Part shown: one piece after another, positions 1 to 8,530 of the stretch
Position numbering within the stretch: the stretch's first letter is position 1
Layout: each line of letters starts with the position of its first letter
From: Tissierellia bacterium
GTDB lineage: Bacteria; Bacillota; Clostridia; Tissierellales; Tepidimicrobiaceae
Assembly: GCA_012728075.1 (NCBI GenBank)
Contig: JAAYFV010000104.1
Location: 1 to 55,452 of the forward strand
Direction of reading: 5' to 3'
Length of the DNA: 55,452 nt
Notes under the pieces: generated by a model
Databases searched by the model: none
What the model was told of the DNA's origin: nothing
What the model saw: only the letters and a program-made list of their open reading frames with translations
Position numbers and translations under genes: made by a program

Positions 1-596
1 AGGAGTTATTTGCTTTTAATGATGAAAAGGTGGCTCGTACTATCTACTCTATGGATAAGCCTGTAATTTCCGCAGTAGGTCATGAAACAGATTTTACAAT
101 AGCAGATTTTGTTGCAGATTTAAGGGCACCTACACCCTCAGCTGCTGCAGAACTAGTTACTCCTGACTAGGACAAACTGATAGATGATTTAAAGGATAAA
201 TTTGATAGGCTAAATAGAGTATATCATTATAGACTAAAGGATTGTAGTATAAAATTAAAATACATAAAGAGAAGCTTAGATTATTACAATCCTATAAATC
301 AATCTAGGGAAAAAATTCAAGAACTAGATAACTTGTTTAGAAATTTAATTAATTTAATGGAAAGTAAAATTGATAGAAACAAGGACCATATAGAAAATCT
401 TAAAAGTAAGATTAATTATTTAAACCCAATATACTATCTAGATAAAGGATATGGTTTGTTATTGGATAAAGAAGGGAATAAAATTACTAGTATAGAAGAT
501 GTAAAAATATATGAAAATCTAGATTTAATAATTAAAGATGGTGTGTTAACGGTGGAAGTGGTTAAAATTAACAAAGGAGAGTTTTATCATGGATAA
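1..596 (+). pseudogene. xseA: Exodeoxyribonuclease VII large subunit, 3' part, interrupted by an in-frame TAG
   Basis: Exonuclease VII is a cytoplasmic nuclease of XseA and XseB that trims single-stranded DNA ends. The frame open at the left edge gives the hallmark XseA core motifs [17 protein letters not shown] and [12 protein letters not shown], then hits TAG at 168-170. The same frame continues without further stops from 171 to 596 and carries the normal helical region and the DKGYGLLL C-terminal motif. The gene is therefore a single-codon interruption of an otherwise intact frame. Its end overlaps xseB by 8 nt. The N-terminal OB-fold lies outside the window. A sequencing error, a recent null allele or readthrough would all look like this. 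Translation could restart at ATG 357 or nearby, but would give only a C-terminal piece. Confidence 0.85.
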
Positions 597-822
597 TTTT
601 GATATGAGTTATGAAGAGGCCATAAAAGAACTAGAAGATATTTTAGAGGCTTTGGAAAGGGAAGACATAACATTAGAGGATTCTTTAAAAAAGTTTAAAA
701 GAGGAGTAGCACTATATAATTATTGTAATGGAATATTAAAAGATATGGAAGGTGAAGTGAAGATATTACTTGAGGATGAAGAAGGGAATATGACTGAAGA
801 GGATTTTCAAATGGAGGTATAG
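589..822 (+). CDS. xseB: Exodeoxyribonuclease VII small subunit
   Basis: The 77-residue product has the family signature MSYEEAIKELEDILEALE followed by the LEDSLKKFKRGVALYNYC helix, the two-helix fold that coats the coiled-coil arms of XseA. Family members are usually 70-85 residues, so it is full length. It starts inside the end of xseA, with the Shine-Dalgarno AAAGGAGAG at 574-582, so its translation is probably coupled to xseA. Since xseA carries a TAG upstream, polarity or lack of a partner could make this subunit idle. ispA follows 4 nt later. Confidence 0.95.
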   Translation: MDNFDMSYEEAIKELEDILEALEREDITLEDSLKKFKRGVALYNYCNGILKDMEGEVKILLEDEEGNMTEEDFQMEV

Positions 823-826
823 TCTA

Positions 827-1696
827 ATGGCATTGGCTGAAAAAATCGAAGAATTTAGAAGTATAATCGATGATGAATTAAGAAAAATATTTTATAAAAA
901 AACTGGTTATCAAGAGATTATATTTGAATCCATCAATTATAGCTTATTTACAGGTGGTAAAAGGATAAGACCAATTATATTATTAAAAAGCTGCGAAATG
1001 TTTAGTGGGGATTATGAGGATGCCCTTCCTTTTTCACTAGCAATAGAAATGATACATACTTACTCTCTTATTCATGATGACCTTCCTTCTATGGACGATG
1101 ATGATTTTAGGAGAGGCAAGCCAACTAATCATAAAGTATATGGTGAAGCTATGGCAATTTTAACAGGTGATGGATTGTTAAACCTAGCTTTTGAGACTAT
1201 GATAGATTATACCTTAAAATACTCAAAGGATTTTGAAGATTATTCTAGATACACGTGGGCTATGAAGGAAATAGGAAATTACTCTGGAGTATATGGAATG
1301 ATAGGGGGACAAGTAGTGGACTTATTATCCAATGAAATGTCCATGGATGAAGATAGGCTTATGTTTATGTATAGATGTAAAACTGCTGCTTTAATTCAGG
1401 CCTCTACCGTAGCAGGAACTATATTAGGTGGTGGAAATGATGAGGATGTAGAAAATATGAGAAAATATGGATTATATTTGGGATTAGCCTATCAAATAAG
1501 GGATGATATATTGGATATTAAAGAGGATGATAAAATAGATAAATTAACTTATCTAAGCTACTATGATATAGAACATGCAGAAAAAAAAATACAGGATTTT
1601 AGTAAAAAAGCTATAGACATATTATATAAATTTGACGATAAGGATGTCCAATTTCTTGTAGATATGACAAAAGTTTTAACAAATAGAATGTATTGA
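827..1696 (+). CDS. ispA: Polyprenyl (farnesyl/geranylgeranyl) diphosphate synthase
   Basis: This trans-prenyltransferase condenses isopentenyl diphosphate with allylic diphosphates to supply undecaprenyl and quinone precursors. In the 289-residue protein GGKRIRP is at 43-49, the first Asp-rich motif HDDLPSMDDDDFRRG at about 83-97, KTAAL at 185-189, GGQVVDL at 160-166 and the second Asp-rich motif DDILD at 226-230. Unusually, the loop after the second motif is short: the conserved GK..GSD segment before the lysine-threonine-tyrosine element is missing, and DDKIDKLTYLSYYD stands in its place. The enzyme should still bind both magnesium-diphosphates. The start follows GGAGGT at 815-820. The OLE RNA promoter begins 7 nt after the stop. 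Confidence 0.93.
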   Translation: MALAEKIEEFRSIIDDELRKIFYKKTGYQEIIFESINYSLFTGGKRIRPIILLKSCEMFSGDYEDALPFSLAIEMIHTYSLIHDDLPSMDDDDFRRGKPTNHKVYGEAMAILTGDGLLNLAFETMIDYTLKYSKDFEDYSRYTWAMKEIGNYSGVYGMIGGQVVDLLSNEMSMDEDRLMFMYRCKTAALIQASTVAGTILGGGNDEDVENMRKYGLYLGLAYQIRDDILDIKEDDKIDKLTYLSYYDIEHAEKKIQDFSKKAIDILYKFDDKDVQFLVDMTKVLTNRMY

Positions 1697-1703
1697 ACTT
1701 ATA

Positions 1704-1732
1704 TTGAATATTTATAAATATTATGCTATAAT
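1704..1732 (+). promoter_or_regulatory. Promoter of the OLE RNA
   Basis: TTGAAT at 1704-1709 and TATAAT at 1727-1732 are separated by exactly 17 nt. An upstream TG at 1724-1725 gives an extended -10. Transcription should begin near 1739, just before the terminal stem of the structured RNA. This makes the RNA an independent transcription unit despite its place inside the ispA-tlyA gene string. Confidence 0.75.
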
Positions 1733-1738
1733 TAATAA

Positions 1739-2338
1739 AGCAAAGAGTGGCACAGTATTCTAGTCAACACAGCTAATCTCGAGGGCGGGGCTAAAAATCC
1801 GTCGAAGGGCATATCGATGAAGTTCCTTGCTACGGCTCGCGACGCCCAGTCGAGGGTCGTTCCAGGGAGTAAGAAAGATGGGGCGATCTGCAATGGCATG
1901 CAGGCGTTGACCCTACTTTCGTGGAGACTTGCCATTTGGGACATGGTAAGATAAACCTAAGCGTATATAATAGCTATGCTTAGAGTAGCCTGCCTTGAGT
2001 GATTTAGGCAGATGATAAGTTCAACTATTGTCGTAAAGGGCCCAAACGGCAATATGTTTTGTTATCGAAACCTAAATTGCAAAAGAGGCTAAGGATTAGA
2101 CTGGTTGTAGAGGAAAACTCCTAGACTGTTCAAGGTAGAGGTATATTGGGGATTACAGTGCGGACTAAGTGGTAATCCAGTTCTGTTGTTGGCGACACAA
2201 CAGTGATAAAATTAAAGGGAAACCGCTGTTATGGCGACATGCAGTTTTTATCAGGGAAATCCTGCTGGACCTTAAGCCGTAAGATTTACCCAATATACTG
2301 CCACTCATGAGCTGATAGCATAATGCTATCAGCTTTTT
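1739..2338 (+). ncRNA. ole: OLE RNA (ornate, large, extremophilic RNA)
   Basis: A 670-bp gap between ispA and the next gene is far richer in GC and in G/C runs than its surroundings and has no credible reading frame. It has its own promoter and a rho-independent terminator. The two ends pair: AGTGGCA at 1746-1752 with TGCCACT at 2299-2305, then GTAT at 1755-1758 with ATAC at 2295-2298, closing a roughly 560-nt domain. OLE RNA is known as a roughly 600-nt ribonucleoprotein RNA of anaerobic and alkaliphilic Firmicutes, encoded between ispA and tlyA-argR-recN and just upstream of oapA. Length, position and neighbour all fit. OLE-OapA complexes sit at the membrane and support growth under cold, alcohol and magnesium stress in the studied host. 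The identification rests on architecture and synteny, not on a covariance-model hit. Confidence 0.9.
2310..2338 (+). terminator. Rho-independent terminator of the OLE RNA
   Basis: AGCTGATAGCA at 2310-2320 pairs perfectly with TGCTATCAGCT at 2324-2334 around a TAA loop. A short T run follows. Incomplete termination here would let the same transcript feed oapA. Confidence 0.8.
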
Positions 2339-2366
2339 AATTATATTATGGAGGTACCAATATTAA

Positions 2367-2969
2367 ATGAATAAAAAAGAAGATAATAATTTTCTAGATA
2401 AATGTAATATGAAATGGGTTATTATGATAACTATTTGGACATTTATAATGGCTATAGTATTTAGCATAATCACAGAAGGTTTAGTAAAAAATCTAAATAT
2501 ATTTTTTGCATTTATAATACTTATAATTATAATAGCTATAGGAATTTTCTTTGATATTATTGGTATTGCAGTTACTACTGCCGAGGAAAAGCCTTTTCAT
2601 GCTATGGCCGCTAATAGGGTAGAGGAAGCTAGATATGCAATAAGGTTAGTAAAAAATGCAGGGCAAGTATCTAATTTTTGTAATGACGTTATTGGTGATA
2701 TTAGTGGCATAGTAAGTGGAGCGGTAGGTGCTAATATCATATATAAATTGATAAATATTTATGAGATTAAAAATGGGACAATATTAAGCATTATAATTAC
2801 ATCTTTAGTTGCTTCTTTAACTGTTGGAGGTAAAGCTTTAGGCAAATCCATCGCTATATTATATTCAGAAAAAATAATATTTGAAGCTGCAATAGTATTA
2901 AATTTTATAGAAAAGAAATTTAAAATAGATATATTACCTGATAAAAAGAACGATAAAGATAATAATTAA
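2367..2969 (+). CDS. oapA: OLE-associated membrane protein OapA
   Basis: The 200-residue integral membrane protein has about four hydrophobic segments (near residues 17-37, 41-67, 108-132 and 138-165). Its cytoplasmic stretch is conserved-looking and charged, with EEKPFHAMAANRVEEARYAI and a following RLVKNAGQVSNFCNDV segment. This resembles the DUF21-like OapA that binds OLE RNA and anchors it at the membrane. It lies 29 nt downstream of the OLE terminator, the hallmark arrangement. A GGAGGT at 2350-2355 precedes the ATG by 11 nt, somewhat long. The other known OLE partners, OapB and OapC, are not in this window. The family call leans on position and topology as well as sequence. Confidence 0.85.
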   Translation: MNKKEDNNFLDKCNMKWVIMITIWTFIMAIVFSIITEGLVKNLNIFFAFIILIIIIAIGIFFDIIGIAVTTAEEKPFHAMAANRVEEARYAIRLVKNAGQVSNFCNDVIGDISGIVSGAVGANIIYKLINIYEIKNGTILSIIITSLVASLTVGGKALGKSIAILYSEKIIFEAAIVLNFIEKKFKIDILPDKKNDKDNN

Positions 2970-3003
2970 ATAATGAAGGTAACTGATAATTAGGAGAGAT
3001 TAT

Positions 3004-3804
3004 ATGAGGAAAAAAAGAGCTGATGTTGTATTATATGAGAAAGGGTTGGTAGAATCCAGAGAAAAAGCTAAAAGGCTTATTATGGAGGGTACAGTATATG
3101 TGGGGGAAAAGAGAATTGATAAGCCTGGAGAAAAGATTCATATTGATGAACCTATTGAAATTAAAAAAAATCCATTACCTTATGTAAGTAGAGGTGGCTT
3201 AAAATTGGAGAAAGCAATCAAATCCTTTAATATAGATTTTAAGAATAAAAATACTATGGATATAGGCGCATCTACTGGTGGTTTTACAGATTGTATGTTA
3301 CAATATGGTGCAAAAAAAGTATATGCTTTAGATGTGGGTTATGGTCAATTAGATTGGAAACTAAGGAAGGATCCTAGGGTAATAATTAAAGAACGAACAA
3401 ATATTAGATATATTGTTAAAGAAGATATAGGAGAAACCTTTGATTTTATAACAATAGATGTATCTTTTATATCACTTAAATTGGTATTACCTGTAGCAAA
3501 GGAGTTGTTATCTGATGGAGGCGGCATAATAGCCTTAATAAAACCTCAATTTGAAGCAGGACGAGATAAGGTAGGTAAAAAGGGTATAGTTCGAGATAAA
3601 GAAACCCATATTGATGTTATAAAATCAATAAAACAATTTTGTGATTCAATTAATTTAAATTTGATAGGCTTGGATTATTCTCCAATAACAGGCACCACTG
3701 GTAATATTGAATTTTTATCTTATATTTCCAAGGATATGAATAAAAAAGCTATCCAAGACATTGAAATTATAAGTATTGTAGATGAAGCCCACAGTTTGTT
3801 ATAA
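3004..3804 (+). CDS. tlyA: TlyA family 16S/23S rRNA (cytidine-2'-O)-methyltransferase
   Basis: The 266-residue enzyme methylates ribose 2'-O of rRNA cytidines using S-adenosylmethionine. An S4 RNA-binding domain (about residues 4-52) precedes an FtsJ-like Rossmann methyltransferase domain with the SAM motif DIGASTGGFTD at 86-96 and the ALIKPQFEAGRDKVGKKG catalytic region containing the K of the K-D-K-E tetrad. The length is normal. GGAGAG lies just upstream of the ATG. tlyA-argR-recN is a widely conserved Firmicute string and here directly follows oapA. The dxs gene often found in this string is absent between ispA and tlyA. Confidence 0.95.
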   Translation: MRKKRADVVLYEKGLVESREKAKRLIMEGTVYVGEKRIDKPGEKIHIDEPIEIKKNPLPYVSRGGLKLEKAIKSFNIDFKNKNTMDIGASTGGFTDCMLQYGAKKVYALDVGYGQLDWKLRKDPRVIIKERTNIRYIVKEDIGETFDFITIDVSFISLKLVLPVAKELLSDGGGIIALIKPQFEAGRDKVGKKGIVRDKETHIDVIKSIKQFCDSINLNLIGLDYSPITGTTGNIEFLSYISKDMNKKAIQDIEIISIVDEAHSLL

Positions 3805-3840
3805 CAGTGTGATCCTATATACAGATTTCAGGAGGGAAAA

Positions 3841-4293
3841 ATGAATAAATATACAAGACAGAGGATTATATTAAATTTAATTAAAAAATATGAAATAGAA
3901 ACTCAAGAAGAATTATCGGGACATCTATCTAAACAGGGGATAGATATAACACAAGCCACTATTTCAAGGGATATAAAAGAGCTAAGGCTTGTTAAAGTAT
4001 TAACTCCATCGGGAAAATATAAATATGCGACTATGGATAATAGCTATGATGGTATTCATCAAAGGCTAAGTAATATATTTAAATCTTCTGTTTTGAGTGT
4101 TGAAGCAGCAGAAAACATTGTGGTTATAAAAACTTTGCCAGGTGCAGCCCAAGTATGTGCATCAGCTATTGATAATTTCAAGATAAATGGTGTTGTAGGG
4201 ACTATTGCAGGTGATGATACCATATTTGTTGCTATAGAGAGTGTGGATTTAATGGATTGTATTTTGACAAGCATTCAAAATTTTCTCAAATAA
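3841..4293 (+). CDS. argR: Arginine repressor
   Basis: This is an arginine-dependent hexameric transcription regulator of arginine metabolism. The winged-helix domain (1-70) contains TQATISRDIKEL at 37-48. The C-terminal oligomerisation and arginine-binding domain has TLPGAAQ at 98-104 and GTIAGDDT at 120-127, whose paired aspartates contact arginine. At 150 residues it is full length. A GGAGG at 3832-3836 sets the start. It is operonic with tlyA and recN, as in Bacillus, where its presence beside rRNA and repair genes is conserved but unexplained. Confidence 0.97.
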   Translation: MNKYTRQRIILNLIKKYEIETQEELSGHLSKQGIDITQATISRDIKELRLVKVLTPSGKYKYATMDNSYDGIHQRLSNIFKSSVLSVEAAENIVVIKTLPGAAQVCASAIDNFKINGVVGTIAGDDTIFVAIESVDLMDCILTSIQNFLK

Positions 4294-4309
4294 TTTGGGG
4301 GTATAAATT

Positions 4310-6007
4310 ATGATAGTTGAGTTAAACATTAATAACTTTGCTATTATAGATAGTTTAAAAATTAATTTTACTAAAGGTTTTAATGTTATTACTGGTGAAA
4401 CAGGGGCAGGGAAATCCATAATAGTTGAAGGAATTGGTATGATTTTAGGTAGTAGAGCTAGTAAGGATTTAGTGAAGTCAGGAAGAAATAAGGCCATATT
4501 AGAAGCGCTATTTTATTTAGAAAATCCAGATAAAATAAACAGAAAATTAGATGATTTTGGTATCGATAGAGATGGAGATAATTATCTATTAATCTCAAGA
4601 GAGATATATTCTAATGGCAGGAGTGTATCAAGGGTAAATGGTAGGACTATTACATTAACGATGTTAAATCAAATTACATCCACATTGGTTGATGTTCATG
4701 GGCAACATGAACATCAATCCCTATTGAATATAAACAATCATATTAAATTAATAGATTCTTTTGGAGACGAGATGTTAAAGAATTTATTGGTACAAGTTGA
4801 AAACAGATACGAAGAGCTAGTAGAAGAAAAGAAAAAAATAGAGGATTTATCTATAGATGCTTTAGAAAGAGATAGGGAAATTGATTTATTAAAGTATCAA
4901 TTAGAAGAGATTGATAACGCTAATTTAATAGATCTAGATGAAGAAGCAATAACAAAGGAATATTTAAAAATGAGCAATATTAAAAATATAGGATATAAAT
5001 TAGCTGAGATATCTAATATTTTAGATAATGATGTTTATGGTAGTGTATCTCTTTTAGATGGTATTAACAAATGTATTATAAGCTTGACAGATATTATGGA
5101 ATTCGATGATAAGATAAAGGAATACACTAAGACTATGGAAGATATAGGATTTGAATTACAGGATTTATCTAGGAATATAAGAAATTATTTAGAGAATATA
5201 TTTTTAGATGAGGAGAGATTAGAGTTTCTTGAAGAAAGATTAGATACAATAAATGGATTGAAGAAAAAATATGGGAATACTATAGAAGATATATTAAAAT
5301 ATAGAGAAAATATACACAATAGATTAGAAATACTTTTAAATAATGAAAAGGAAATAGAAAAATCCAATAAAAAAATACAAGCTATAGAAAAGGAATTGTT
5401 TGATTGTTGCACTAAGCTGACAAATATAAGGAAATCTATAAGTAAAGATATTGAAATTTTAATGACAAAAGAACTACATGAATTAAATATGCTAGAGGCG
5501 GTATTTAAAATAGATTTTGATAGATTAGATTATTTTTCTCCTAATGGGTGGGATCGAGTGGAATTTTTAATATCTACAAACAAAGGTGAGCCTTTGAAAC
5601 CCCTATCTAAAATTGTATCTGGGGGAGAAATGTCTAGAATAATGTTAGCATTTAAAACTATATTAGCTGATTATGATAGTATACCCTGTGTAATATTTGA
5701 TGAAATCGATAGTGGAATTAGTGGAAGAACTGCACAGATAGTAGGGGAGAAGATAAAGAAGATTTCTTTTAAACATCAGGTTATATGTGTGTCCCATTTG
5801 CCACAAATTGCTGCTTTAGCTGATACTCATTTTGTTATTGAAAAAGATTTTGTTGATAACAGCACTATAACAAAAGTTAGAAAACTTGATAATGAAGAGC
5901 GAATAGAGGAATTGTCAAGACTTTTAGGTGGAGTTGATTTGACTGATATTACTAAACTCCATGCAAAAGAGATGTTAGAGATGTCAAAGACATTGAAAAA
6001 AAATTAA
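4310..6007 (+). CDS. recN: DNA repair protein RecN
   Basis: This is an SMC-like ATPase of double-strand-break repair acting on the nucleoid. In the 565-residue protein the Walker A motif GETGAGKS is at 29-36 and a coiled-coil arm occupies about 150-370. The ABC signature VSGGEMSRIMLAFKTIL and Walker B CVIFDEIDSGISGRTA follow near residues 440-475, with the D-loop and H-switch region VSHLPQIAALAD after them. The length is normal. The ATG at 4310 follows GGGGG at 4296-4300. Unlike the lexA region, no LexA box is visible upstream of recN, so SOS control is not evident here. A strong terminator follows. Confidence 0.97.
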   Translation: MIVELNINNFAIIDSLKINFTKGFNVITGETGAGKSIIVEGIGMILGSRASKDLVKSGRNKAILEALFYLENPDKINRKLDDFGIDRDGDNYLLISREIYSNGRSVSRVNGRTITLTMLNQITSTLVDVHGQHEHQSLLNINNHIKLIDSFGDEMLKNLLVQVENRYEELVEEKKKIEDLSIDALERDREIDLLKYQLEEIDNANLIDLDEEAITKEYLKMSNIKNIGYKLAEISNILDNDVYGSVSLLDGINKCIISLTDIMEFDDKIKEYTKTMEDIGFELQDLSRNIRNYLENIFLDEERLEFLEERLDTINGLKKKYGNTIEDILKYRENIHNRLEILLNNEKEIEKSNKKIQAIEKELFDCCTKLTNIRKSISKDIEILMTKELHELNMLEAVFKIDFDRLDYFSPNGWDRVEFLISTNKGEPLKPLSKIVSGGEMSRIMLAFKTILADYDSIPCVIFDEIDSGISGRTAQIVGEKIKKISFKHQVICVSHLPQIAALADTHFVIEKDFVDNSTITKVRKLDNEERIEELSRLLGGVDLTDITKLHAKEMLEMSKTLKKN

Positions 6008-6020
6008 GTATTATTTAATA

Positions 6021-6054
6021 AAAACACTTTACGAGAGTAAAGTGTTTTTATTTG
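6021..6054 (+). terminator. Terminator after recN
   Basis: AAAACACTTTAC (6021-6032) and GTAAAGTGTTTT (6037-6048) form a perfect 12-bp stem with a GAGA loop and a T-rich tail. It ends the xseA-to-recN transcription unit. Confidence 0.9.
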
Positions 6055-6198
6055 TCAAAATATAACAAAAAACATTTAACTTAGCATTCCAATAAAAATT
6101 TAAAAGAATAAATATGATCAAAAAAGGCTAAATTATATTTACGTAATAAAATTTTAAGGAGGTGAATTAGTATAAGGGAAAAAGAGGAGTGATTGTAC

Positions 6199-7515
6199 TT
6201 GGATAGATATAGAGAAAATAGAAAAATATTTTCTTTATCTGTTATAGTATTGGCTTTTTTTTATGTAATTCAGTTTTTGATTGTATATTATTATCCTACT
6301 GAAATTAAAATTGCAAAAGGTGAAAATAGCAGCATAGAAGTACTATTTCCATTTTCTTTAAGTGCATTACACGATGAAGATACTATAGTACAATCGACTT
6401 ATAATGAGGGCTCTACTAATGGATTAAAAAAATCTTACAAAATAGCTGCTATCAATCCAGGAGAGGCAAAATTTCAGTTAAAACTATTAGGCTTGATACC
6501 AGTAAAAAGATTTGATATAAATGTTGTAGATAGGGATATTTTGATTCCTGGAGGAAATGCTGTAGGAGTGAGATTAAATACAAAAGGTGTGCTAGTAGTT
6601 GCTGTTACAGATGTTATTGGAATAGATGGTAAAAGATATAGTCCAGCTAAAGATGTAGGCATAAAAAATGGTGATAGTATATTGGAGTTAAATGATATAA
6701 AAATAAGAGATGCTGAACATTTAATAGAATTATTAAATCAAATAACAGAAGATAAAGTAAAAATCCTAATAGAGCGCAATAAAATTAAATATGAGACAGA
6801 AGTAATGCCTGTGAAGAGTATTCAAGATAATTGTTTCAGATTGGGAATTTGGGTACGAGATAAAACCGCTGGTATTGGAACCCTTACTTTTTATGATGAA
6901 AATAGTAAAATATTTGGAGCATTAGGACATGGAATAACCGATATGGATACGGGGAATCTATTAAATATAGAATATGGGAAAATAATGAATGCAAGAATAG
7001 CCAATATTGAACAAGGTAAAAAGGGAAGTCCCGGAGAGATTAAGGGAATGTTTTATGAAACAGAGAATGTATTGGGGGAAATAGTAAAAAATTCTCCTTT
7101 TGGTATATACGGGGTAATCAATGATAGCTTTATAAAAGCAAATAAGACAAAACCCATGCCTATAGGTTTTAAGGAAGAGGTAAAAGAAGGTAAAGCATAT
7201 ATATTGACTACCATTGACAATGATAAAGTTGAAAAATTTGAAGTAGAAATATTAAAAGTTTTAAACCAACAATATCCCAATCAAAAGAGTATGACCATTA
7301 AAGTAACAGATAAAAAGCTGTTACAAAAAACTGGAGGTATAGTTCAAGGTATGAGTGGTAGTCCTATTATTCAAGATGGAAAGATCATTGGAGCTATAAC
7401 CCATGTATTTGTCAATGATCCAACTAAAGGATATGGAATTTATATTGAATGGATGTTAGAACAGATAAAACCTGAATATCAATTAAATGGGAAATATGCA
7501 GAAATAAAAAATTGA
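6199..7515 (+). CDS. spoIVB: SpoIVB serine peptidase (sporulation sigma-K checkpoint signal)
   Basis: SpoIVB is secreted from the forespore into the intermembrane space, where its PDZ-regulated S55 peptidase activity triggers pro-sigma-K processing. The product has an N-terminal membrane anchor (about 12-32), a PDZ domain (about 115-205) and a C-terminal S55 domain. The catalytic histidine is in GALGHGITD and the serine in GIVQGMSGSPI. These are 142 residues apart, the same spacing as H236 and S378 in B. subtilis. I prefer TTG 6199, 9 nt after GAGGAG (6184-6189), giving 438 residues; TTG 6193 is too close. A stronger, unused-looking AAGGAGGTG lies at 6156-6164. spo0A follows, a very conserved pairing. 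Confidence 0.95.
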   Translation: MDRYRENRKIFSLSVIVLAFFYVIQFLIVYYYPTEIKIAKGENSSIEVLFPFSLSALHDEDTIVQSTYNEGSTNGLKKSYKIAAINPGEAKFQLKLLGLIPVKRFDINVVDRDILIPGGNAVGVRLNTKGVLVVAVTDVIGIDGKRYSPAKDVGIKNGDSILELNDIKIRDAEHLIELLNQITEDKVKILIERNKIKYETEVMPVKSIQDNCFRLGIWVRDKTAGIGTLTFYDENSKIFGALGHGITDMDTGNLLNIEYGKIMNARIANIEQGKKGSPGEIKGMFYETENVLGEIVKNSPFGIYGVINDSFIKANKTKPMPIGFKEEVKEGKAYILTTIDNDKVEKFEVEILKVLNQQYPNQKSMTIKVTDKKLLQKTGGIVQGMSGSPIIQDGKIIGAITHVFVNDPTKGYGIYIEWMLEQIKPEYQLNGKYAEIKN

Positions 7516-7538
7516 TAGGCTTTAAGCCTATTTTTTTT
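7515..7538 (+). terminator. Terminator after spoIVB
   Basis: ATAGGC (7515-7520) pairs with GCCTAT (7526-7531), extended by TT/AA in the loop, followed by eight Ts. It overlaps the last base of the stop codon. Confidence 0.85.
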
Positions 7539-7567
7539 ATATATAATAAAGATTTTTTATTAAATAG

Positions 7568-7595
7568 AAGGAAACCACAATTCCTTGTCGAATAG
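7568..7595 (+). promoter_or_regulatory. Candidate sigma-H promoter with Spo0A box upstream of spo0A
   Basis: TGTCGAA at 7586-7592 is a perfect match to the 0A box. AGGAAAC at 7569-7575 and CGAAT at 7589-7593, 13 nt apart, resemble the sigma-H elements AGGAWWT and RGAAT. The 0A box would overlap the -10, as expected for Spo0A autoregulation. The box is seen directly; the sigma-H call is inferred from consensus. Confidence 0.6.
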
Positions 7596-7644
7596 TTAAT
7601 TATAGAAATAATAAAAATTAGATTTTAACAGGGGGGTATCATAA

Positions 7645-8463
7645 TTGGAGAAGATTAAAATATTAATTGCAGATGATAATAGGGAATTTTGTGATATATT
7701 AAGCAAATTTTTATCTGCAGATGAAGATTTTGAGGTTGTTGGTATTGCGAAGGATGGCCTTGAAGCGTTGGATATGGTTTCTGAAATCAGACCTGATATA
7801 CTGATATTAGATATCATAATGCCACATTTAGATGGTTTAGGAGTTTTAGAGGGTATACATAATCTAAACTTAGATAAAAAACCTAAGATAGTTATACTTT
7901 CTGCAGTGGGTCAGGATCAGATTACTCAAAAAGCCATTCAGCTAGGAGCTGATTATTATGTAGTAAAACCCTTTGATTTTAAGGTGTTTATAAAAAGATT
8001 AAAACAAATAGCTGATTTGGAAAAAGGATCCCAAATTATTGCTAAAAATGAATACATTCAAATACCTACTACGAATACCCATAATGTTGTTACATCAAAA
8101 AATTTGGAGGCTAGGATTACTAATATAATCCATGAAATTGGGGTGCCAGCACATATTAAAGGATATCTATATTTAAGAGAAGCTATTGCTATGGTTGTTG
8201 AAGATATGGAGTTACTAGGAGCAGTTACCAAGGAACTATATCCAAGTATAGCTGAAAAGTATAATACAACATCAAGTAGAGTAGAAAGGGCTATTAGGCA
8301 TGCTATAGAAGTAGCGTGGACACGAGGGAAGATTGATACTATAGATAATATATTTGGATATACCGTAAATACTAATAAAGGGAAACCTACCAACTCAGAG
8401 TTCATTGCGATGGTTGCTGATAAATTAAGATTAGAAATGGAAATGACGGAAGGAAGCGTTTAA
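7645..8463 (+). CDS. spo0A: Sporulation master regulator Spo0A
   Basis: Spo0A is the response regulator whose phosphorylated form binds 0A boxes and commits the cell to sporulation. The receiver domain (1-120) has acidic residues D10/D11, the phospho-acceptor D56 in ILDIIMP, S86 and K108. The C-terminal DNA-binding domain keeps the family-specific [18 protein letters not shown] and [16 protein letters not shown] segments. It is full length at 272 residues. It starts at TTG 7645 after GGGGGG at 7631-7636. It is monocistronic, bounded by the spoIVB terminator and a downstream hairpin, and is probably autoregulated through the 0A box at 7586. Confidence 0.98.
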
Positions 8464-8469
8464 AAGATA

Positions 8470-8498
8470 ACCCCACAAGGAAAATGTCTTTGTGGGGT
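8470..8498. terminator. Hairpin after spo0A, probable weak terminator
   Basis: ACCCCACAA (8470-8478) pairs with TTGTGGGGT (8490-8498). No T run follows on either strand, so it may act as a pause or mRNA-end stabiliser rather than a full terminator. Confidence 0.5.
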
Positions 8499-8530
8499 AA
8501 AATATTGCTTATTTATGTATTTAATTATTA

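Follow-up and report, generated by a model that had tools for sequence, protein, structure and literature searches.

The window analysed here, a 55,452-nucleotide stretch of a Tissierellia bacterium genome, carries the features of interest near its start, all on the forward strand. The gene ispA, encoding farnesyl diphosphate synthase, occupies positions 827–1696 (NF045485, 279.2 bits against a cut-off of 275) and is followed by a promoter (1704–1732), OLE RNA (1739–2308), a hairpin with a T tract (2309–2340), oapA (2367–2969), tlyA (3004–3804; TIGR00478, 281.6 bits) and argR (3841–4293; TIGR01529, 146.3 bits). The NCBIfam matches confirm both flanking genes, and with them the placement between ispA and tlyA that had been proposed from the sequence. 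This is very probably the ole-oapA locus of a bacterium akin to the Tissierellaceae, in which an OLE RNA stands next to the gene for its membrane partner. The RNA family and the locus are already known; what is added here is a conserved hairpin at the 3' end of the RNA and a gap where dxs and dxr would be expected. PMC12265935, citing unpublished data, connects the argR product to the OLE complex. At the contig start, an xseA fragment (3–593) holds an in-frame TAG at 168–170, a position at which two relatives carry a sense codon, possibly through pseudogene formation, strain mixture or sequencing error.

OLE RNA accounts for the entire GC-rich non-coding stretch of about 600 nt, which has 45% G+C compared to 29% for the window. 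A covariance search matched positions 1–616 of the Rfam OLE model RF01071 to window positions 1731–2320 (487.3 bits, E 5.3e-140, gathering score 50), and this is the sole Rfam match over a gathering score within the window. A profile match covers 1736–2319, while the promoter suggests a start at about 1739. OLE is present in a single copy in the window genome (2.38 Mb in 229 contigs, 98.55% complete). A genome search found none in 14 control genomes. Among 100 relatives, 59 carry OLE over the cut-off and 41 gave no match; six of the latter belong to the window's own family (G003, G005, G006, G009, G013 and G016) and represent either real losses or gaps in draft assemblies. The comparative set consists of 131 loci (the window, 50 and 80 others, some being the same place fetched twice), of which 130 matched OLE. 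The alignment, promoter, hairpin and tree counts given below use 114 distinct loci out of 123 near full length.

The original prediction had the two ends of the RNA pairing between 1746–1758 and 2295–2305. The outer six pairs, which form P1 (1746–1751 with 2300–2305), hold: 659 of 684 alignment cells (96%) are paired, with A-U/G-C and U-A/C-G exchanges and changes on both sides. The inner portion (1754–1758 with 2295–2299) is not supported: it pairs in 462 of 569 cells with no compensating change; its changes are one-sided because the 5' strand is almost invariant, with three of 114 sequences differing at one position. The 3' strands of the fold run from 2289 to 2305, with P1 at 2300–2305 and, at 2289–2299, the partner of 2140–2150 in a long helix. 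This helix is paired in 1213 of 1253 cells (97%), shows many types of compensatory, two-sided change and is the same as that in the Rfam model.

The loops that build the published OLE dimer are kept in sequence and near invariant. The cryo-EM structures (PMC12286853, PMC12265935) place the dimer contacts in L4, L5/L6 and L9. The A-rich L4 loop region (1787–1800) has letter conservation of 0.99–1.00 across the 114 sequences. In the published dimer, the loop of P5 (GCCCA, 1840–1852; 0.97–1.00) forms a kissing contact with that of P6. The P6 loop itself (CAATGGCATG, 1888–1903), in which GGC faces the P5-loop GCC, is conserved at 1.00 except for T1894, at 0.61. Its GGCATG is kept in the window. 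The L9 palindrome GGGCCC (2038–2043), whose kissing contact in the published dimer is symmetric, has a core GGCC conserved at 0.93–0.96.

Comparison with known OLE RNAs, whose hosts include Halalkalibacterium halodurans, C. acetobutylicum and C. botulinum, shows both likeness and difference. The window RNA shares the whole RF01071 model, the dimer loops, P1, the long helix, a promoter of its own and the gene neighbours; it differs in a shortened stem at model positions ~204–237 and in its conserved 3' hairpin terminator, which the informative portion of the Rfam model does not reach. A letter search for CCTCCT found no counterpart in the window OLE of the CCUCCU in P6 of the H. halodurans RNA, which passages of PMC12054373 describe as a perfect anti-Shine-Dalgarno mimic. 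The published short variants 1 and 2 have a shortened P7–P9 or lack P7/P8, and the OapB site is missing from them. In the window OLE, one stem is short (model ~204–237), but the GGCGAC loops and a long L9 arm are present.

Candidates for split or miniature OLE RNAs were found among the relatives, with partial matches of 434 and 246 nt in G017 and short ones in G014, G018 and G019, and were taken as assembly breaks. Each of the two pieces in G017 (L032 and L033) borders a run of 30 Ns, and 61 identical bases are common to both; the piece in G019 (L036) shares these 61 bases too and stops at the end of its contig. The G014 contig (L034) starts inside OLE, and in G018 (L035) the 5' end, near the contig end, is unlike OLE and partly repeats the genome's own OLE. 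The strong conservation of OLE is perhaps why assemblies break within it, and the breaks mimic short variants. L032 also carries a Moco riboswitch (RF01055, 8344–8463) upstream of a putative molybdate or tungstate transport gene set.

Transcription of the RNA would depend on an extended −10 promoter of the sigma-A type, TTGAAT-17-TATAAT with TGC before the −10 box, which is present at 1704–1732 as originally proposed. Promoter-strength matches in the AT-rich region 1–8500 are at chance level (62 found, 52.8 expected, sd 7.7). A single match is therefore not above chance in the window, and the promoter call rests on conservation in relatives. When the 64 nt around the start of OLE were scanned for their best hexamer pair, it had at least 9 of 12 consensus letters in 93.9% of the 114 distinct loci, compared to 11.6% of random windows from the same loci. 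The spacer is 17 nt in 99 loci and TGn is present in 105; in 78, the first base of the −10 box falls in the same stretch of six positions. In PMC9723947, the ole gene of H. halodurans is reported to lie inside a large operon yet to have its own promoter.

The 200-residue product of the gene at 2367–2969, between the terminator and tlyA, had been predicted to be OapA, and its neighbourhood in other genomes bears this out. An alignment search with OapA only found relatives encoded in at least 560 candidates among genome contigs. In 79 of the best 80 loci, OLE sequence lies upstream, two of these matches being partial (L073 and L084); in the remaining locus (L083), the contig starts inside oapA. 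The named matches nearest to the window organism among these best 80 come from Tissierella, Schnuerera and Anaerosalibacter, and identity to the 32 aligned OapA sequences of named loci, drawn from the same 80, is 42–72%. Conserved blocks surround F104-C105-N106-D107 and T152-V153..K156..K160. The oapA match at 2422–2988 of L091, on a Dethiosulfatibacter metagenome contig, holds a stop codon, so this locus was left out of the second OapA alignment.

OapA has no match in NCBIfam and none over a cut-off in Pfam. Scores against Pfam CNNM are 17.8 and 19.2 bits, under the cut-off of 28.4, and there is no CBS match; a weak CNNM sequence match is already described for OapA in PMC11332333. The AlphaFold2 model (pLDDT 85.9) aligns with the CNNM domain of MtCorB over 129 residues (Z 13.8, 2.4 Å, 16% identity) and with 7cff, the transmembrane domain of CorC (Z 12.1), with unrelated entries starting at Z 8.0, although a Z near 13 in helical bundles can by itself mean a common arrangement. 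Foldseek places the MtCorB chains first (E 0.008–0.1), with no PDB match at E 0.001 and a best value of 0.0083, while PDB sequence searches with OapA alone and with a profile returned nothing up to E 1. The predicted fold is of the CNNM transmembrane domain type. Like known OapA, the protein sits just after OLE and combines long membrane helices and a weak CNNM match with a CNNM-like predicted fold. The modelled transmembrane fold is likewise shared with the CNNM/CorC/MpfA Mg2+ transporters, but OapA differs from these in having only 200 residues, no CBS match and a score below the Pfam cut-off.

As expected for OLE, the genome also encodes the other known partners, oapB and oapC, elsewhere, along with bS21. 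OapB was located by gene order, between ORFs that we take to be adk and infA, and matches PDB entry 7k9b, 'OLE-associated protein B' (E 5.9e-14). It has no match in Pfam, and its NCBIfam score is under the cut-off; Pfam KOW matches at two places in the genome, in ORFs of 105 and 187 aa, are not OapB. OapC is an 84-residue YbxF homologue (PF01248, 57.5 bits, over the cut-off) between neighbours presumed to be rpoC and rpsL; its best PDB match is YbxF (4lck), and its NCBIfam score of 86.2 bits is below the cut-off of 113. The genome has one bS21 gene (83.2 bits), which is followed by a 147-residue ORF resembling YqeY. A genome-wide search found no CNNM match over the Pfam cut-off that could represent MpfA, and oapA itself is the sole CNNM-like place. 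The absence of MpfA from a genome with OLE is in line with the published anticorrelation.

A working model brings these components together; its dimer, membrane anchoring and stress role are drawn from published work on other species. The RNA would be transcribed from its own strong promoter at 1704–1732 and would end at the hairpin terminator at 2309–2340, while oapA may be expressed by readthrough or from transcripts started further upstream. After folding, the RNA would dimerise through the L4, L5/L6 and L9 contacts, and OapA would anchor it in the membrane within a particle that carries OapB, OapC and bS21. In the window organism, which has no detectable MpfA-type Mg2+ exporter, the particle would be bound to the membrane, serve in the stress response and also keep Mg2+ under control, as in H. 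halodurans.

The hairpin at the end of the RNA is the first addition to this picture. A terminator had been predicted after OLE, and 12 pairs followed by a T tract do stand there (2309–2335); the correction is that the hairpin is of conserved sequence. On the basis of the stem GCTGATAGC/GCTATCAGC (2311–2333) and the T tract, we read it as an intrinsic terminator that would end OLE RNA. A sequence-blind scan detected a terminator-like hairpin no further than 75 nt from OLE in 58 of the 114 loci, compared to 31 of 1073 random windows, and 54 of these 58 have the same stem or a close form. With L085, missed by the scan, the stem is present in 55 of the 114 distinct loci and missing from 59. Since the 55 were selected at a threshold of at least 13 of 18 consensus letters, the blind scan is the fair check on their likeness. 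Among the 55 stems, 38 are exact, five have GCTGGTAGC (a G-U pair), three have a compensated last pair and nine are other forms. Loops range from 2 to 16 nt. The distance from the hairpin to P1 is 7–9 nt in 36 of the 55, and that to the OapA match ranges from −2 to 433. In its exact form the pattern has a single occurrence in the window, and 47 of 166 loci, some of these loci being duplicates, hold it one time each; the hairpin pattern was also found in 15 stretches of viral contigs. The hairpin is confined to one part of the OLE tree, requiring four changes compared to at least 30 in 200 shuffles, and among the 114 it is missing from the Bacillus-like loci, Clostridium L134 and the Thermosediminibacter-type L101 and L105.

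Other hairpins of the same genomes provide a control. Of 102 intergenic terminator-like hairpins at the ispDF loci of 15 genomes, with sharing defined as at least 16 of 18 letters, 76 are common to no other genome, 26 to between one and four, and none to more. The OLE hairpin reaches at least 16 of 18 letters in 14 of 14 genomes (the G023 locus not included). The scan for the OLE hairpins, which scored them against their own consensus, was looser than that for the controls. When a cruder control also counted hairpins lying in reading frames, another genome held a match of 16–18 letters for 29 of 144.

Three explanations of this conservation can be considered. One, to which we give an even chance, is an ordinary terminator kept by common descent, whose letters have no role of their own. 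Its position, its T tract and its clade-wise distribution all agree with this. Two observations run against it: the OLE bodies of the 55 carriers are only 75% identical at the median pairwise comparison and as little as 64%, and most other terminator-like hairpins have drifted, as the 76 of 102 common to no other genome illustrate.

In a second explanation, possible if rather doubtful, the hairpin is both a terminator and a lineage-specific module of OLE in the Tissierellales and Alkaliphilus-type Clostridia, its stem being read by a protein or guarding the 3' end. Conservation is concentrated in the stem, with stem columns at 0.87–1.00, the linker at 0.35–0.58 and the loop at 0.47–0.64. The recurrence of one stem in the blind scan, the short spacing to P1, gain and loss that track the OLE tree, and the reach of the OLE hairpin into 14 of 14 genomes, where controls reach at most four others, argue in the same direction. 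Against it, the T tract is that of an ordinary terminator, more than half of the OLE loci (59 of 114) do without the hairpin, L005 has no stem although the surrounding relatives carry it, and the hairpin has no known binding partner. The clade may simply have inherited the hairpin, and the control is unclean, given the 26 of 102 hairpins shared by at least one other genome, the 29 of 144 in the first control and the looser consensus scoring of the OLE hairpins.

Conserved terminator stems are typical of attenuators, and the hairpin does stand between OLE and oapA, but a third explanation, in which a conserved OLE segment pairs with a stem strand and lets transcription into oapA, is very unlikely: for neither strand of the stem does any OLE segment offer more consistent pairing than it does for shuffled versions.

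The main texts of PMC11332333, PMC9723947, PMC12054373 and PMC12265935 do not contain the word 'terminator', and the 'terminator' passages seen in PMC10898510 concern the ykoY riboswitch and references. These texts give a weak indication that the conserved hairpin is not yet in print.

The second addition concerns the neighbours of oapA. Downstream of oapA, dxs is present in 80 of the 131 loci, always within 1.5 kb and on the same strand; tlyA directly follows oapA in 47, and four loci are cut. The window belongs to the second type, with 2970–3003 as the gap where dxs would lie. The original prediction that dxs is missing from the locus extends to the whole genome, in which it is also undetected. 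The best DXP-synthase-domain matches there reach only 53, 48 and 33 bits and fall in what we take to be split transketolase-like and dehydrogenase-like genes. Among 31 genomes, a real dxs (over 420 bits and beside OLE) is found only in G025, G027 and G030, and none is found in 20 genomes of the window's family. The ole-oapA unit thus persists in OLE-bearing genomes in which its usual neighbour dxs is undetected.

The gap extends to the next enzyme gene considered, dxr, which is found in only the same three (G025, G027 and G030) of 19 genomes, while ispF is present in all 19. Both dxs and dxr are undetected in 16 of these 19 ispF-keeping genomes of the window's order (the window genome and relatives, with loci L062, L063 and L152–L166), in a search that covered the first type of Dxr. 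OLE is present in 15 of the 16; G009 gave no match. Furthermore, ispG was found in 10 of 10 genomes and HMG-CoA reductase in one of 10, and an ispD-like gene lies beside ispF in all 15 loci read. No new gene replacing dxs and dxr was seen beside ispDF in these 15 loci. In G000 (the window genome) and G001, there is no gene between cdsA and rseP, the interval in which dxr would be expected. PMC10663253 reports 181 species that lack only Dxs and states that virtually every organism using the pathway retains Dxr I/II.

Taken together, these two additions lead to a tentative proposal, which we hold to be possible but doubtful: that OLE in the Tissierellales and Alkaliphilus-type Clostridia carries an extra sequence-specific 3' hairpin serving as both a terminator and a module of the particle, and that OLE and OapA work in cells without dxs (and dxr), so that a direct link between OLE and the Dxs enzyme could not be general. 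OLE, from a well-studied family, is one of the largest RNAs in bacteria with a still unsettled biochemical role, and the near-invariant 3' hairpin would offer a defined, swappable target in the search for a further partner or function. PMC10898510 raises a possible functional relation between OLE and Dxs, and a clade that keeps ole-oapA without dxs would provide a natural test of it.
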